A stretch of 35,000 bases of DNA from a virus, in the IMG/VR virus record IMGVR_UViG_3300047297_000103, positions 1-35,000 of that record; one strand, written 5' to 3'. Shown here one piece after another: positions 14,431 to 28,491 of the stretch (its first letter is position 1; each line of letters begins with the position of its first letter). The notes below the pieces were generated by a model, which worked only from the letters and a program-made list of their open reading frames with translations, was not told where the DNA came from and made no database searches. The position numbers were made by a program, and so were the translations under genes.

Positions 14431-16949
14431 TGGAAGATGATCTGTCCACACTGACGAATGAGCAGTTGATGCAAATGGCTGGAATTAGCACAGCCCAGCC
14501 TACCGCCCCTTCCGCTCCTGCTCCGCGTCAAATTATTGGGCCCGCTCCAACCAAGCCTGAAGGGCCGCCTTCGGGTTATCGCTATAACGCGCAAGGCGGA
14601 CTTGAGCCTATCCCCGGCGGGCCTGCTGATCCGAATGCAAAAAAGCCAGCCCCGACTGAAATTGAGTTGAAGGCTGAGTTGGACAGCATTCAAGCCATTC
14701 GTGACCAGATTAAGGATAGCTTGCAGTACGTGCGGCCCGGAACAACTGAGCTTGGCGCATATACAGGTAAATTTGGCGGCCTGTCGTCAACTTTTTTCCC
14801 AGATGCGGCAACACTTAATTCGCGCATCGACGAACTTGCTGGCAAGCAGACGCTTGATTATCTTAGCGGACTTAAGCAGCGCACAGAAGGTAATCCCCTT
14901 GCTGGTCCGACATCAGATCGGGACGTTAATCTTGCGCGTCAGGCTGCGGGTAACATTGACCAGACAGCGCAAACAGAGGAGTTGCGCCGCAATCTTTTGC
15001 GCTATGATAATACCCTCGAAAACTTGCAGTTGAAATTGCAAGGAAAAGAGGGAAAGCCATTCTCCGCATACATTAAGGATTATTCGCAGCAGGAAACATC
15101 CGCGCCAAAGGTTGGGGATGTGGCAACTGAAGCTGGCACATTGGCAACGCGGCCAGACCCGGCACTCACCGGGACGAATGCCAAGGTCCGCTCAATGCTC
15201 AAAGCTGGCGTTCCTCAGAACTTGATTGTTGAATATCTGAATTCAGTTCGACCGGGCCTTGGTGACGGCGCCGTTCCATCCTTGACCGCTGTTGAGCGTT
15301 GGAAGGCCGCAAATCCAGACTATAAGGGAGGGTATAAGGTAGACCTTGAAAAAGAGTATTATCGGACAACCCCAACTCAGTCTGTAATTGGACGTGCTGC
15401 GACCAGCGGACCCGGCGCATATGCCATTCAGGCTGCTAATACGCTTGCCCTTGGCGCGCTTCCCGAATTGACTGTGCGCCCTGAGCAAACCCGTGCAATT
15501 ATCGAAGGTCTCAGCCAGACAAATGATATTGCGTCTCCGCTTGGACAGGTGACGGGTTCCTTGATTGGTGCCGCACTTCCTGCGGGTATGCTTCGCTTTG
15601 CTGGCGCCGCACCTTCCATCGCTGGTCTTGCTGGTGAGGCTGCATTTGGGGCCGGTACCGGCGCGGTTGCTGGCGGAGAAGGTGGTCGCGTTAAAGGTGC
15701 GGCTGCGGGTGCTGGGTTGAGCTTGCTTGGATCGGCTGTTGGAGGCCTTGGGACAAAAATTGTTGCCGATATTGTATCGCCAGCAATCTCCAAAGAAGTG
15801 CGCCTTGCTGCGAAGTCCGATGTTCCCATGTCTCTTGGGACAATGTTGGGTGGCGGCTATAAGGCATTCGAAGAGCGGTTGGCAAACGTCATTCCTTTCT
15901 TCGACACTCAGTTGCAAAAAGTTAGCAATGATGCGGCTGAAAAGGCGCAACTTAAAGTATTTGATGAGGTTCTGGCCCCGACTGGCATTGCCTATCCAAA
16001 AGACGCTGGCATCGGTGAGGATGCCTTTAAGTTTTTTGAGGGAACGGATCAGTCAAAGGGCTTCTACGACAAAAAATATGATGAACTTTATTCGCAAATG
16101 CGCTTCTCTCGGACGCCAGACGTTGACCAGAAAATATCTGATTTGGTCAATGAGGTAAACTCACGTCCGGGGCTTACGCAGGATGATGTGTCGCAGTTTT
16201 CTCGTGATATTGCCAACACTGTCATTGGTCCGGTTACCCGTAACAAGGGTTATTTGACTGGGGAAGAGTTTGGCAAGGTCATGAGCAATCTCAAGACAGC
16301 GAAGCGAGCGGCTTACAAAAGAAATGATGAGCTTGGCGCTGCATTCAATGATTTGCAGGGCATTCTCGAAGAGGGCGCGATTGCGGCGACTAAGAGCAAA
16401 AATGTTGGTCAAAATTATCGTAACTTGAGCAACTCCTATCGCAAATATCTTATTGTGAAAACCGCTGCTGCGCGTCCGGGCGGGGGTGTCGGCGAGTTGA
16501 CTGGTGCCAGCCTTAAAAATGTTGCGGCTGCGGCTGAAGGCCCGACTGCGACTGTAACTGGTGAAGGCCCGCTGACAAGTCTTGGTCGCATGATGCAGAT
16601 GGTCACTCCGGCTGGGGCAACCGGTTCTGCATCGGCGCGGAATTTGGCAATCGGCGGCGCTTTGGGGCTTGGTGCTGGTGGGGCCACATTCCCAGAGGAA
16701 GTCGGTCCTGTTTCTGGGGCTGTCGGACTTGCGGCAATTCCGATGCTGCTTGGCTCCTCTCGGCGTCTTAACCCTGCAATGCGCGCTCTTGTTGCGAGTG
16801 AACGTCCAAAGGCTGTCCAGTCAATTGCAAACTTTACCCGTCGTGCTGTAGCCCCAGCGGCGGCTGCATATGGCCGTCAAACGCTTTTGGATCAGTATTC
16901 ACAAACGCAAGAACAAGAGCGGCTCCGCAGAATGGCACAGGGCTTCTAA
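14430..16949 (+). CDS. Large ejection protein (internal virion protein)
   Basis: This 839-residue protein is one of the largest in the genome. It has a proline-rich N-terminus and a coiled-coil region (about 75-230). A long Gly/Ala-rich segment at about 325-450 resembles membrane-inserting helices (GSLIGAALPAGMLRFAG, GLSLLGSAVGGLG). A helical middle and a second Gly/Ala block near 720-770 follow. This layout suits a protein that forms part of a DNA-delivery channel across the host envelope. No lytic domain is seen in it; the M15-like protein encoded next may supply that. It overlaps both neighbours by one base. Confidence 0.8.
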   Translation: MEDDLSTLTNEQLMQMAGISTAQPTAPSAPAPRQIIGPAPTKPEGPPSGYRYNAQGGLEPIPGGPADPNAKKPAPTEIELKAELDSIQAIRDQIKDSLQYVRPGTTELGAYTGKFGGLSSTFFPDAATLNSRIDELAGKQTLDYLSGLKQRTEGNPLAGPTSDRDVNLARQAAGNIDQTAQTEELRRNLLRYDNTLENLQLKLQGKEGKPFSAYIKDYSQQETSAPKVGDVATEAGTLATRPDPALTGTNAKVRSMLKAGVPQNLIVEYLNSVRPGLGDGAVPSLTAVERWKAANPDYKGGYKVDLEKEYYRTTPTQSVIGRAATSGPGAYAIQAANTLALGALPELTVRPEQTRAIIEGLSQTNDIASPLGQVTGSLIGAALPAGMLRFAGAAPSIAGLAGEAAFGAGTGAVAGGEGGRVKGAAAGAGLSLLGSAVGGLGTKIVADIVSPAISKEVRLAAKSDVPMSLGTMLGGGYKAFEERLANVIPFFDTQLQKVSNDAAEKAQLKVFDEVLAPTGIAYPKDAGIGEDAFKFFEGTDQSKGFYDKKYDELYSQMRFSRTPDVDQKISDLVNEVNSRPGLTQDDVSQFSRDIANTVIGPVTRNKGYLTGEEFGKVMSNLKTAKRAAYKRNDELGAAFNDLQGILEEGAIAATKSKNVGQNYRNLSNSYRKYLIVKTAAARPGGGVGELTGASLKNVAAAAEGPTATVTGEGPLTSLGRMMQMVTPAGATGSASARNLAIGGALGLGAGGATFPEEVGPVSGAVGLAAIPMLLGSSRRLNPAMRALVASERPKAVQSIANFTRRAVAPAAAAYGRQTLLDQYSQTQEQERLRRMAQGF

Positions 16950-17476
16950 TGTCAGATGCAGTCAACCTCGTTAAGTCGCTGTTTCCTACGGCGCGGGTAA
17001 CAAGCACCAAGCGTTCACCCACAAGTGTCCTTGGCCGCAAAAACCCGCGCTCGTATCATAACATCGGCAGGGCCATCGACATTGCACCGATCCCCGGCAT
17101 CAATTTCAAGGATTACGTAAGCTCGGTTAGATCGGCCTTCAAAGACGCGGGCCTTGACCTCGTTGAGACGATTGAAGAGGTCGGTAAGGGCCGATCTAAG
17201 CACGCTACAGGCGATCACTGGCACATTGCCTATACGAGTGGCTCTAAGGCACCAAAGGCTGCTGTGAAGGCTCCCAAGGACGCTGTGCAGCCTCCTAAGC
17301 TAGACCAGACGGCATCTGTGGATGTCGAGAAGCCCGATATGCCTGATGCGCCTGACTTCGACATAGAGGCTGAGACCGAAAGCAACTTCGCCTCCCTGCT
17401 TGCCAAGATCGGCGCTGGCAAAAAGAAGCGTTCGACCAAGCGTAAGATGCCCGGTATTCTGGATGGACTGATCTGA
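16949..17476 (+). CDS. M15-type peptidase (virion peptidoglycan hydrolase candidate)
   Basis: This 175-residue protein has the M15 metallopeptidase zinc pattern: SYHNIGRAID (His37, Asp44) and GDHWHIAY (His90, His92). Family members trim peptidoglycan peptides, often as D,D- or L,D-carboxypeptidases or endopeptidases. The second half is a Lys/Pro-rich linker (KAPKAAVKAPKDAVQPPK), an acidic stretch and a very basic end (KKKRSTKRKM). It is tied to the ejection gene by one overlapping base and lacks a signal peptide, so a virion-borne enzyme opening the cell wall during entry is most likely. Confidence 0.82.
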   Translation: MSDAVNLVKSLFPTARVTSTKRSPTSVLGRKNPRSYHNIGRAIDIAPIPGINFKDYVSSVRSAFKDAGLDLVETIEEVGKGRSKHATGDHWHIAYTSGSKAPKAAVKAPKDAVQPPKLDQTASVDVEKPDMPDAPDFDIEAETESNFASLLAKIGAGKKKRSTKRKMPGILDGLI

Positions 17477-22639: not shown

Positions 22640-23042
22640 GAAAGCGTACTGCACCACCGGCCACAAGCATGACAGCATCTCGGAAGCCAAACGGTGTGAT
22701 GAACTGCACGTCATGCTGGCCGCTGGTGAGATTGATGACCTACTCGTTTTTCCGCAATTTTGGTTTGTTATCAATGGGATACAGGTCAAACACGATAACG
22801 GCAGGCGTCTAGGTTACGTCGCGGACTTTGCCTTCGTGCAGAACGGCAGAGAAGTGGTGGAAGACGTGAAGGGGTCAAAGGCTGTTGACAGCAGAGACTG
22901 GCCTATCCGCAAGGCGCTTTTCAAGGCACTGTTTCCGATGCACGATCTGCGGGAGATAAGGCCGGAGCGGAGGAAGGGAGTAACTCGACGCCCCGGCCAC
23001 GCCAAAACTGACGCAGACGAAGAATACAGAAAGAAGGGATAA
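22620..23042 (+). CDS. DUF1064 nuclease-like protein
   Basis: This 140-residue protein matches the phage DUF1064 group: an HDSISEAKRCDELHVMLAAG helix, the FPQFWFV strand, YVADFAFVQNGREVVEDVKG with Asp and Glu-Asp-Val-Lys like a PD-(D/E)XK site, and a DWPIRKALFKALF helix. The family is regarded as Holliday-junction-resolvase-like endonucleases. GTG 22620 has AAGGAG at eight bases and lies inside the regulator gene (20-base overlap). The C-terminus is very basic. Confidence 0.83.
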   Translation: MKKWKAKKAYCTTGHKHDSISEAKRCDELHVMLAAGEIDDLLVFPQFWFVINGIQVKHDNGRRLGYVADFAFVQNGREVVEDVKGSKAVDSRDWPIRKALFKALFPMHDLREIRPERRKGVTRRPGHAKTDADEEYRKKG

Positions 23043-23048
23043 AACACA

Positions 23049-23408
23049 ATGATTAGAATTACCACCAACCGCCAGCGCGCAACGCCGCTTCCACGGCCAC
23101 CAAGGCGCGCAATGCTGATGGCTCCAGTCGCTGTTAAGGTGCCTGTCTACACCAGCTTCAAGATGGACGATATAAAGCGCACTGTCACTCAAAAGCACGG
23201 TGTTTCAATTGAGGACATTTTCAGCCGATCGCGGGTGAAGCACTTGGTTGCAGCGCGTCGGGAGTTTATCCAAAGGCTGCACCACGAAATGCGCTGGAAC
23301 GCGACAAGGATTGCCACTCACTTGCAGATGGACATAACGACCATCAATCATCACTTGGGTCTGCGGCGGACATCCAGCGTCAAATATGGCGCTTTGAACG
23401 ACGATTGA
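23049..23408 (+). CDS. DnaA domain IV-like DNA-binding protein
   Basis: Residues about 40-103 of this 119-residue protein follow the DnaA C-terminal (domain IV) pattern: VTQKHGVSIEDIFSRSRVKH, LVAARREFIQRLHHEMRWNA, then TRIATHLQMDITTINHHLG, where TTINHH corresponds to the DnaA HTTV signature region. Domain IV reads DnaA boxes. The ATPase domain is absent and the first 40 residues are basic and proline-rich. It is likely a replication or regulatory factor that binds origin-like boxes. It lies two genes before the candidate origin. Confidence 0.82.
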   Translation: MIRITTNRQRATPLPRPPRRAMLMAPVAVKVPVYTSFKMDDIKRTVTQKHGVSIEDIFSRSRVKHLVAARREFIQRLHHEMRWNATRIATHLQMDITTINHHLGLRRTSSVKYGALNDD

Positions 23409-23734: not shown

Positions 23735-24444
23735 TGCACTATTTTCAATTTAACATTGGCGACTATGCCAGCCACACGCGCCACCTCTCACTGATGGAGG
23801 ATTTGGCTTATCGTCGGCTGCTCGATCTCTACTACCTGAAGGACGGAGAGATATACGGCGACGAAGCTGAAGTCGCTCGCCAGATCGGTATGCGTGATGA
23901 AGTTGCAGCCGTGGGGCAGGTTCTTCAGGACTTTTTCACGATTGACGAAGATCGGTGGTCGCATGGTCGTTGCGATGCAGAAATAACGCATTTTCGCCAA
24001 AAATCAGAGAAGGCGTCTAGCGCTGGTAAGGCATCCGCTCAACGTCGGTCCAACGAACGATCAACGGACGTTCAACAGACGTTCAACCAACCAATAACCA
24101 ACAACCAAGAACCAATAACCAACAACCAAGAGGATAAATCCCCTAAAGGGGATATGTCATCTGACGATGACCTCTCGGTCCAAGATGTTGTTGATGCTTG
24201 GAATGATCTCGCTGCTCAGTGCGGCCTTTCGGAAGTCGTCAAGATAACTCCAGCACGCAGACGGCAGGTGCAGGCACGGATTAAGGAATATCCAAGCGCA
24301 GAGGATTGGGGCAAGGCGCTGTCAGCCATTGAGAGATCGAAATTCATGTGCGGAGACAACGACAGAGGCTGGCGAGCAAACTTCGACTTCCTGCTTCAGC
24401 CCAGCACATTCATAAAACTTTTGGAGGGAACCTATGACCGATAA
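23734..24444 (+). CDS. DUF1376 (YdaU-like) replication protein
   Basis: This 236-residue protein has an N-terminal winged-helix DUF1376 domain (HYFQFNIGDYASHTRHLSLM, EDLAYRRLLDLYYLKDGEIY, about 2-90). A Gln/Asn-rich linker holds a duplicated QPITNNQE/EPITNNQE unit, and a C-terminal domain follows (VVDAWNDLAAQCGL; WGKALSAIERSKF; WRANFDFLLQPSTF). This C-terminal pattern is common in phage helicase-loader-like proteins. ATG 23734 overlaps the previous stop (TGATG); GTG 23731 is an alternative. The linker DNA is itself repeated and is a candidate origin. Confidence 0.86.
   Translation: MHYFQFNIGDYASHTRHLSLMEDLAYRRLLDLYYLKDGEIYGDEAEVARQIGMRDEVAAVGQVLQDFFTIDEDRWSHGRCDAEITHFRQKSEKASSAGKASAQRRSNERSTDVQQTFNQPITNNQEPITNNQEDKSPKGDMSSDDDLSVQDVVDAWNDLAAQCGLSEVVKITPARRRQVQARIKEYPSAEDWGKALSAIERSKFMCGDNDRGWRANFDFLLQPSTFIKLLEGTYDR
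24040..24153 (+). repeat. Iteron-like repeats and palindrome: candidate replication origin
   Basis: Inside the DUF1376 gene, imperfect 11-base units of the form TCAACNGACGT (about 24050-24090) are followed by a perfect 21-base tandem repeat (24090-24110 and 24111-24131) that is A/C-rich. Next is a perfect palindrome ATCCCC-TAAA-GGGGAT (24138-24153). Repeats within the linker of an initiator gene mirror the lambda origin within gene O. Confidence 0.55.
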
Positions 24445-27170: not shown

Positions 27171-27228
27171 CAAAACAGGGATGAGAGCCTAGATAGATTT
27201 GCAGGCCGAAGTGGAGTATAAGCCTGTT

Positions 27229-28491
27229 ATGAGCCATTCAATTAATATCGAGTATGTCCCGGTAGCGGATCTCATTCCGTATGCGGCCAACTCCCGAACG
27301 CATAGCGACGTTCAGGTAACGCAGATTGCTGCCAGCATTCGGGAGTTTGGCTTCACCAATCCAATCTTGGTCAATGGTGAGAACACCATCATTGCTGGGC
27401 ATGGTCGCCTTATGGCCGCAAAGAAGCTGGGCCTTGATGAGGTTCCGGTTATATGCCTCGACCACCTCAGCAAAGCGCAACAGAAGGCGCTGGTCATCGC
27501 AGACAACCAACTGGCTCTCAACGCCGGGTGGGATATTGATATGCTGAAGGTTGAGATTGAGGGCTTACAGCTAGAGGACTTCGACCTTGATCTGCTGGGC
27601 TTTGATGACAAGTTTCTTGACGGGTTGCTTGAGCCTGAGCCAGCTGAGGGCCTTACTGACGAAGACGCTGTTCCAGATGTGCCGGAGACACCGAAGACCG
27701 TTCTTGGTGACGTTTGGGTGCTGGGCAATCACAGGTTGATGTGTGGGGACAGCACTAGCATTGATGCGGTTGATAAGCTGATGGCTGGTGTGAAGGCGGA
27801 TATGATTTTCACTGATCCGCCTTACGGAATGTCGTATGGGGGGGGGGCGCTCGCAGGTTCAACCCCGAAAGGCGCGCTCGTGAAAGCGCATGGTCCAATT
27901 ATGGGTGACGATAAAACAGGCGATGACCTGATTGCCCTCGTTCGCGATGCCGTCGCGTGCTCCGTATCAGTTAGCAAGGCCGGTGCTGCGGCTTATATTT
28001 GTTTCCCTTGGCGAACATATAGCGAGTTTGAGGCTGCGCTAAACGAATGTGGCCTAAAACCATCTGCTTGCATTGTGTGGGATAAAAAGTCGATTGGCCT
28101 TGGAAATAGCAACTATCGACCACAGCATGAGTTTATCTTTTATATTAAAGGCGGCTCTTGGTTTGGCGATAAGGCTCAGTCAGACGTTTGGTATATGAGC
28201 CGTGGCAATACCAGTGCTTATGTCCATCCGACACAAAAACCCGTTGAACTCATTGAGCGCGCTCTCAATAATAGCAGCAAGGCTGGTGACGTTGTGATCG
28301 ACTGTTTTGGTGGCTCTGGCTCCACCCTTATCGCTTGCGAAAAAAACAATCGAAATGCGCGCCTCATGGAACTTGACCCCAAACACGTAGATGCAATCAT
28401 CAAGCGTTGGCAGGACTTCACAGGAAAGGAAGCCATTCACGCTGAGACGGGTTTGCCATTCAACGAGATGACCAATGTCGCTAACAGTTAA
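27229..28491 (+). CDS. ParB-domain DNA methyltransferase (N6-adenine or N4-cytosine)
   Basis: This 420-residue fusion has an N-terminal ParB/Srx-like domain (about 8-100; ADLIPYAANSRTHS, NTIIAGHGRLMAAKKLG) and a methyltransferase with motif IV DPPY (196-199) before motif I FGGSGST (360-366), the beta-class order. A WVLGNHRLMCGDS start and VHPTQKP are typical. It may modify phage DNA against host restriction. Ten consecutive G (27838-27847) lie just after DPPYGMSY and could slip. ATG 27229 is used; an in-frame TTG at 27199 is possible. It overlaps TerS by 17 bases. Confidence 0.9.
   Translation: MSHSINIEYVPVADLIPYAANSRTHSDVQVTQIAASIREFGFTNPILVNGENTIIAGHGRLMAAKKLGLDEVPVICLDHLSKAQQKALVIADNQLALNAGWDIDMLKVEIEGLQLEDFDLDLLGFDDKFLDGLLEPEPAEGLTDEDAVPDVPETPKTVLGDVWVLGNHRLMCGDSTSIDAVDKLMAGVKADMIFTDPPYGMSYGGGALAGSTPKGALVKAHGPIMGDDKTGDDLIALVRDAVACSVSVSKAGAAAYICFPWRTYSEFEAALNECGLKPSACIVWDKKSIGLGNSNYRPQHEFIFYIKGGSWFGDKAQSDVWYMSRGNTSAYVHPTQKPVELIERALNNSSKAGDVVIDCFGGSGSTLIACEKNNRNARLMELDPKHVDAIIKRWQDFTGKEAIHAETGLPFNEMTNVANS
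27838..27847 (+). repeat. G10 homopolymer in the methyltransferase gene
   Basis: Ten consecutive G encode three Gly codons and the first base of an Ala codon, just after the catalytic DPPY motif. Gain or loss of one G would shift the frame and remove the SAM-binding motif. Confidence 0.9.

Follow-up and report, generated by a model that had tools for sequence, protein, structure and literature searches.

A probable replication origin in the linker DNA of a phage DUF1376 initiator gene

The DNA that encodes the linker of the DUF1376 gene is very probably this phage's own replication origin, and the product of the gene its initiator. The window, by which we mean the whole stretch of DNA analysed, is a 35,000-base virus record, and in it the linker carries a block of 11-bp iterons, an A/C-rich array of heptamers and a hairpin. 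The simplest account of this arrangement is an origin lying within its own initiator gene, laid out as in lambda and P22, but with 11-bp iterons of a single turn each and with a heptad element rich in A and C; what is new here is the DUF1376 version of an initiator-gene-embedded iteron origin, a kind already known. Comparison of sequences provides the evidence: the repeats themselves, their periods, a constraint on the DNA beyond that on the protein, recurrence among relatives and an association between the protein's basic tail and the iterons. The original prediction had proposed an origin in the linker of an initiator gene resembling O, and this proposal is now supported by the peak in constraint, the recurring 7- and 11-bp periods and a sequence-blind scan, and further by a gp18/O match in the C-terminal domain, replication-gene neighbours and the layout of P22 and HK97.

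Features of the putative origin, its initiator gene and the neighbouring DnaA-like gene in the window
Feature	Position	Strand	Basis or remark
Putative DUF1376 initiator gene, 237 aa	23731..24444	+	Pfam PF07120, E 1.1e-24; PHROG O-like/primosomal families
Basic tail DAEITHFRQKSEKASSAGKASAQRRS, proposed iteron reader	23974..24051	+	iteron sequence tracks tail, not body
Iteron block, five 11-bp near-repeats	24040..24094	+	last unit overlaps heptamer array
Heptamer array, six AACCAAN, A/C-rich, strand-asymmetric	24089..24130	+	proposed unwinding element
Hairpin ATCCCCT-AA-AGGGGAT	24138..24153	+	7-bp arms
Helical C-terminal domain, may recruit helicase or its loader	24178..24441	+	gp18/O match; AF2
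DnaA domain-IV-like gene	23049..23408	+	PF08299, E 1.2e-6, 28.9 bits, below the 31.5 cut-off

The repeats lie where they had been predicted, at 24040–24153 within the disordered linker of the DUF1376 gene. The near-repeats of 11 bases are confirmed as five units, CAACGTCGGTC (start position 24040), CAACGAACGAT (24051), CAACGGACGTT (24062), CAACAGACGTT (24073) and CAACCAACCAA (24084), all beginning with CAAC. The 21-base tandem is indeed perfect (24089–24130), although its true unit is the heptamer, with three heptamers repeated twice over; likewise, the palindrome expected after the tandem is present, but its arms are 7 bp long and not 6. The seventh base of the window heptamers is T, C or G, i.e., AACCAA(T/C/G), TRF reports a period of 7 with 6.0 copies (24088–24129), and the bases at 24088–24130 are 24 A, 15 C, 2 G and 2 T. 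AACCAANAACCAA is present in five copies in the array region, as against none in 100 dinucleotide shuffles of the window. When stretches of 33 comparisons are ranked over all 35 kb, the linker holds both the best lag-7 stretch (29/33, the runner-up scoring 17) and the best lag-11 stretch (26/33, the runner-up again scoring 17), and the two adjoin one another. By stability, the heptamer array ranks only within the lowest 3.5% of 43-nt windows, the local minimum being elsewhere, near 23018; a strand-asymmetric region of low stability adjoins the iterons, as expected of an initiator-gene-embedded iteron origin. Elsewhere in the window, a 21-bp tandem repeat of 2.6 copies is found at 17246–17299, near the end of the ORF at 16949–17476, and imperfect 18/36-bp tandem repeats are found at the left end (90–168).

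The gene product is composed of a winged-helix-like body, the basic tail, the disordered linker and a C-terminal domain like that of P22 gp18 and the O proteins. In the AF2 model, made with 20 relatives, the mean pLDDT is 83.8, with residues 114–135 and 137–143 below 50; the N-terminal domain has a long last helix reaching residue 110, and the helical C-terminal domain begins at residue 149. Residues 156–234 match P22 gp18 (35.7% identity, E 3e-4 to 4e-4), the C-terminal domain also matches HK97 O and other lambdoid O proteins, and the O-like PHROG 345 is matched with an E of 1.6e-28. Foldseek returned no match to the initiator model at E < 0.001. A second fold search returned, for residues 5–99, mostly winged-helix chains with Z at most 6.3, the best row being the ADAR1 Zb domain (Z 6.3), and one row aligned the C-terminal part with lambda P (Z 5.6, rmsd 4.3 Å, 80 residues); no weight is placed on the ADAR1 Zb and lambda P rows. 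A sequence search of the PDB found no relative, with a single row at E 1.1.

On one reading, selection on the protein maintains a conserved low-complexity Gln/Asn linker peptide, and the DNA repeats simply come with it: peptides resembling TNNQEPITNNQ are widespread, the linker is disordered, and, the peptide itself being periodic, the signal is partly retained in synonymous shuffles. The observed lags, however, exceed those of the shuffles. For 38 non-redundant linkers, taken without a heptamer filter, comparison with synonymous shuffles gave z of 11.7 at lag 7, 12.0 at lag 11 and 13.2 at lag 22, and as a positive control the same type of scan recovers the lambda iterons annotated in the lambda record. 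In the 66 nt 5′ of the array, lag-11 identity over 56 array genes is 0.46 as against 0.34 (z 18.1), with lag 11 the best among lags 5–19 in 48 of the 56; within the 46 arrays that are long enough, lag-7 identity is 0.78 as against 0.54 (z 21.9). In the DUF1376 domain, which served as control, there is almost no signal beyond a slight lag-11 excess (0.29 versus 0.26, z 7.3). Of 35 non-redundant DUF1376 genes, 30 contain a strong lag-7 stretch and 10 a strong lag-11 stretch, and neither kind occurs in any of 540 non-overlapping ORFs of the same loci; this control set is free of overlaps, the first lag-7 scan having matched 23 “other” ORFs that may be frames overlapping the DUF1376 gene. Periods of 7 and 11 cross codons and, not being multiples of 3, fit poorly with either protein selection or in-frame slippage.

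Codon choice points in the same direction. Among 24 genes of one linker type, hand-chosen from 76 loci together with the window, where two genes agree in the amino acid they also use one codon for it at a rate of 0.89–0.98 over residues 106–140 (0.39–0.50 expected) and of 0.36–0.57 over residues 26–75, the start of the gene also being raised at 0.44–0.70; by this measure, synonymous-site constraint peaks at the repeats. Within the heptamer, positions 1–5 are conserved (0.87–0.99) at any codon position, while positions 6 and 7 are variable (0.61 and 0.50) even where the amino acid changes; the 56 genes were picked by array score, a filter favouring the consensus, so that the contrast between codon positions carries more weight than the absolute values. 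Isoleucine is encoded by ATA in 81% of heptamer cases versus 26% elsewhere in the gene, proline by CCA in 94% versus 34%, and glutamine by CAA in 98% versus 63%. In a linker held only by its peptide, synonymous sites would hardly be so nearly invariant when heptamer position 7 varies even at sites that change the amino acid, and we consider this explanation of the repeats very unlikely.

The array is found well beyond the window. In a survey of 78 non-redundant DUF1376 genes (seven loci were dropped as too short, and 18 of the 52 bacterial loci, having no HMM match, were excluded beforehand), an array score of at least 18/24 was reached by 35/38 viral, 11/14 GenBank phage and 10/25 bacterial genes; the other 15 of the 25 bacterial genes gave no array, a point against the origin reading, and within the DUF1376 domain itself none of the 78 genes reached a score of 18. 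Shewanella phage X14 and Vibrio phage 1.184.A are examples of DUF1376 phages with this layout. E. coli ydaU, with 13/24, was rejected as a carrier. A sequence-blind scan of viral contigs with AACCAANAACCAANAACCAA matched at least 120 stretches, 80 of which were taken as loci: among the matches listed, 72 of the 80 have the repeat in an ORF that contains a DUF1376-like domain, on its coding strand, a further truncated one (L139) looks alike, and seven are elsewhere. Tandem slippage in an unconstrained linker, leaving repeats that have no DNA function, would account for the varying number of units among relatives (4–9 heptamers), for the lack of any difference between the window's two copies of the 21-bp unit and for AACCAAG heptamer arrays outside DUF1376 genes (L095 and L130). 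Slippage in frame, however, predicts periods of 3n where 7 and 11 dominate, the same consensus with its free seventh base is found in distant genes, and codons are kept between diverged genes, all of which makes a purely mutational source very unlikely. The third element of the proposed origin is less widely shared: hairpins with arms of at least 6 bp within 50 nt 3′ of the array are found in 20 of 56 genes (6.9% in 2,696 control windows), and the viral set holds 17 of these 20 (17/35 viral versus 3/21 elsewhere), often with different arm sequences. On these sequence counts the hairpin is a feature of the clade and is not universal.

The sequence of the iterons follows that of the basic tail. 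In 114 array genes, of which the blind scan supplied 58, AGKASA tails pair with GTTCAAC iterons in 38/38 cases, GGRP tails with AACCCA in 30/33, SAxARW tails with GCGAACGC-like cores in 10/17 and GAAxRW tails with CCCCCTAA in 7/8, while 18 tails are outside any class; tail and iteron classes were set post hoc, and L126 stands in T2 by regular expression, with a tail resembling T4. A class-free test, using iteron DNA without the tail codons, gave a partial r of 0.63 (p 0.001) between iteron hexamer sharing and tail identity given the body, and of 0.02 (p 0.24) between hexamer sharing and body identity given the tail. The pair L009 and L011 illustrates this: the bodies are 94% identical, the tails 24%, and no iteron hexamer is shared, while array and hairpin remain similar. 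Since tail and iterons adjoin, physical linkage alone would move them together; a sign test on the body tree for the commonest class, underpowered with five supported independent pairs, gave a mean of 4.3 in agreement and none in disagreement (p 0.125). The linker is flanked by bodies, tails and C-terminal domains in shuffled combinations, which makes a recombination joint for domain swapping conceivable, and the DNA might also be functional as an operator, partition or packaging site without being an origin. A pure recombination joint, however, predicts neither the free seventh base nor the match of iterons to tail, the gene is that of an O-like initiator, and the layout fits known origins in O/gp18 genes; a function other than that of an origin is thus, we believe, very improbable.

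Among these, P22 gene 18 (L264, 937–1752), where we take the P22 origin to be located, and HK97 O (L267, 922–1743) carry, in this order, repeats at a 23-bp lag, an A-rich stretch with a 7-bp period (ACAAAAG ACAATAT ACAAAAG ACAATAA; lag-7 z 3.5 and 3.7) and a hairpin. They share with the window the homologous C-terminal domain, iteron-like repeats, a 7-bp-period stretch and the CCCCCTAAAGGGGG-type hairpin (CCCCCT...GGGGG), and differ from it in the 23-bp lag, in another N-domain and in heptads that are A-rich rather than A/C-rich. A lag-7 z of at least 2.8 is found in 6 of 16 O/gp18 genes (P22, HK97, L283, L311, L319 and L339), all of one sequence type, and the signal is absent from lambda (z 1.3), Aaphi23, phi297, D14O, Proteus V3, PSTCR7, CUS-3, phiRM10, L345 and L346; in this comparison 6 loci were hand-picked from 80, and a further 80, near-identical to lambda O, were left out. 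With 6/16 genes and one sequence type, the heptad was rejected as a feature of all O-type genes. In lambda, the iterons are inverted repeats of about 19 bp, bound by dimers and spaced by about 20–24 bp, whereas those of the window are 11-bp direct repeats; also unlike oriLambda, the N-domain is DUF1376 and the proposed unwinding region an AACCAAN array instead of an A+T/purine tract. According to PMC5043065 and PMC7466680, oriLambda lies inside gene O and consists of iterons and an A+T-rich region, which in lambda shows strand asymmetry. On that description lambda and the Shiga-toxin phages resemble the layout proposed for the window, with the origin within the initiator gene and a strand-asymmetric unwinding region after the iterons. 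An oriLambda of the lambda type proper was rejected for the window, in which no inverted-repeat iterons of about 19 bp were found and no helicase or P-type loader was recognised among the 24 distinct ORFs scanned.

More distant systems share single elements. YdaU of the E. coli Rac prophage is, as in the window system, a DUF1376 protein, and ydaV, encoding a putative ATP-binding protein, follows it; the ydaU linker has a 23-bp-lag repeat and, unlike the window, no heptamer array. The iterons of iteron plasmids are outside the rep gene and the Rep proteins are different, and the RepL initiator of P1 is not known to be related to the DUF1376 initiator. In PMC5043065, plasmid iterons are described as direct repeats in helical phase, a likeness to the window. 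P1 oriL, according to the abstract of PMC9948254, lies within repL, as the window origin would lie in its initiator gene, and synonymous substitutions in an AT-rich tract cut replication; that abstract, unlike the window, describes no iteron-plus-heptamer layout.

In GenBank phages, the gene adjoining several of the DUF1376 genes encodes replication protein P, a DnaB-like helicase, an IstB-like ATPase or a primase/helicase. Among the ORFs listed for 12 hand-picked relatives (up to eight per locus) none with a Walker A motif was found 3′ of the gene. The nearby DnaA-like gene had been taken as strengthening the case: tblastn finds relatives of it upstream of DUF1376 in a further 15 loci from the clade to which the window belongs, but DnaA boxes are not enriched (five sites with at most one mismatch versus 5.1 expected, and none in the linker). 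An origin based on clustered DnaA boxes was therefore rejected, and the DnaA domain-IV-like protein is at most a candidate participant in initiation. Cumulative GC skew, which had been expected to peak at the linker, fails as an origin marker: its minimum is off the linker (24.1 kb), near 21–22 kb at the junction of the divergent early operons, and is confounded by gene orientation. Other genes of the window include a ParB_N domain fused with an N6/N4 DNA methylase (27199–28491) and an HNH endonuclease (2010–2588), possibly a homing endonuclease, directly 3′ of the SU10-type major capsid gene.

How the initiator binds, how the duplex opens and what tail, array and hairpin contribute we infer as follows. 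Several initiator molecules would occupy the 11-bp iterons, roughly one to each helical turn, and the basic tail after the winged-helix-like body would confer lineage-specific recognition. The assembled complex would then destabilise the adjoining A/C-rich heptamer array, where the duplex would open, and a conserved part of the machinery may read the repeated AACCA core, in single- or double-stranded form. The gp18/O-like C-terminal domain would subsequently recruit the helicase or its loader, and the hairpin may mark the far edge of the origin. We consider it possible, if somewhat doubtful, that DUF1376 phages have a modular origin with a readable code, in which a swappable basic tail by the winged-helix-like body fixes the sequence of the 11-bp iterons, and that the heptad opening element (AACCAAN here, ACAAAAN in P22 and HK97) belongs generally to initiator-gene origins as a feature so far undescribed, setting how the initiator or helicase holds the opened strand.

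Our literature searches, which covered open-licence papers, returned no direct precedent for DUF1376 origins; five of the papers covered mention DUF1376, and to judge by titles and abstract openings none of these deals with origins. For a large family whose members carry just the annotation “DUF1376” or “primosomal protein,” the finding gives a testable assignment of origin and initiator, together with a DNA signature that is usable for scanning. The pairing of tail and iterons offers natural domain swaps for the study of how initiators choose their origin, and a 7-bp period common to the opening elements of otherwise different origins raises the question of what reads it.
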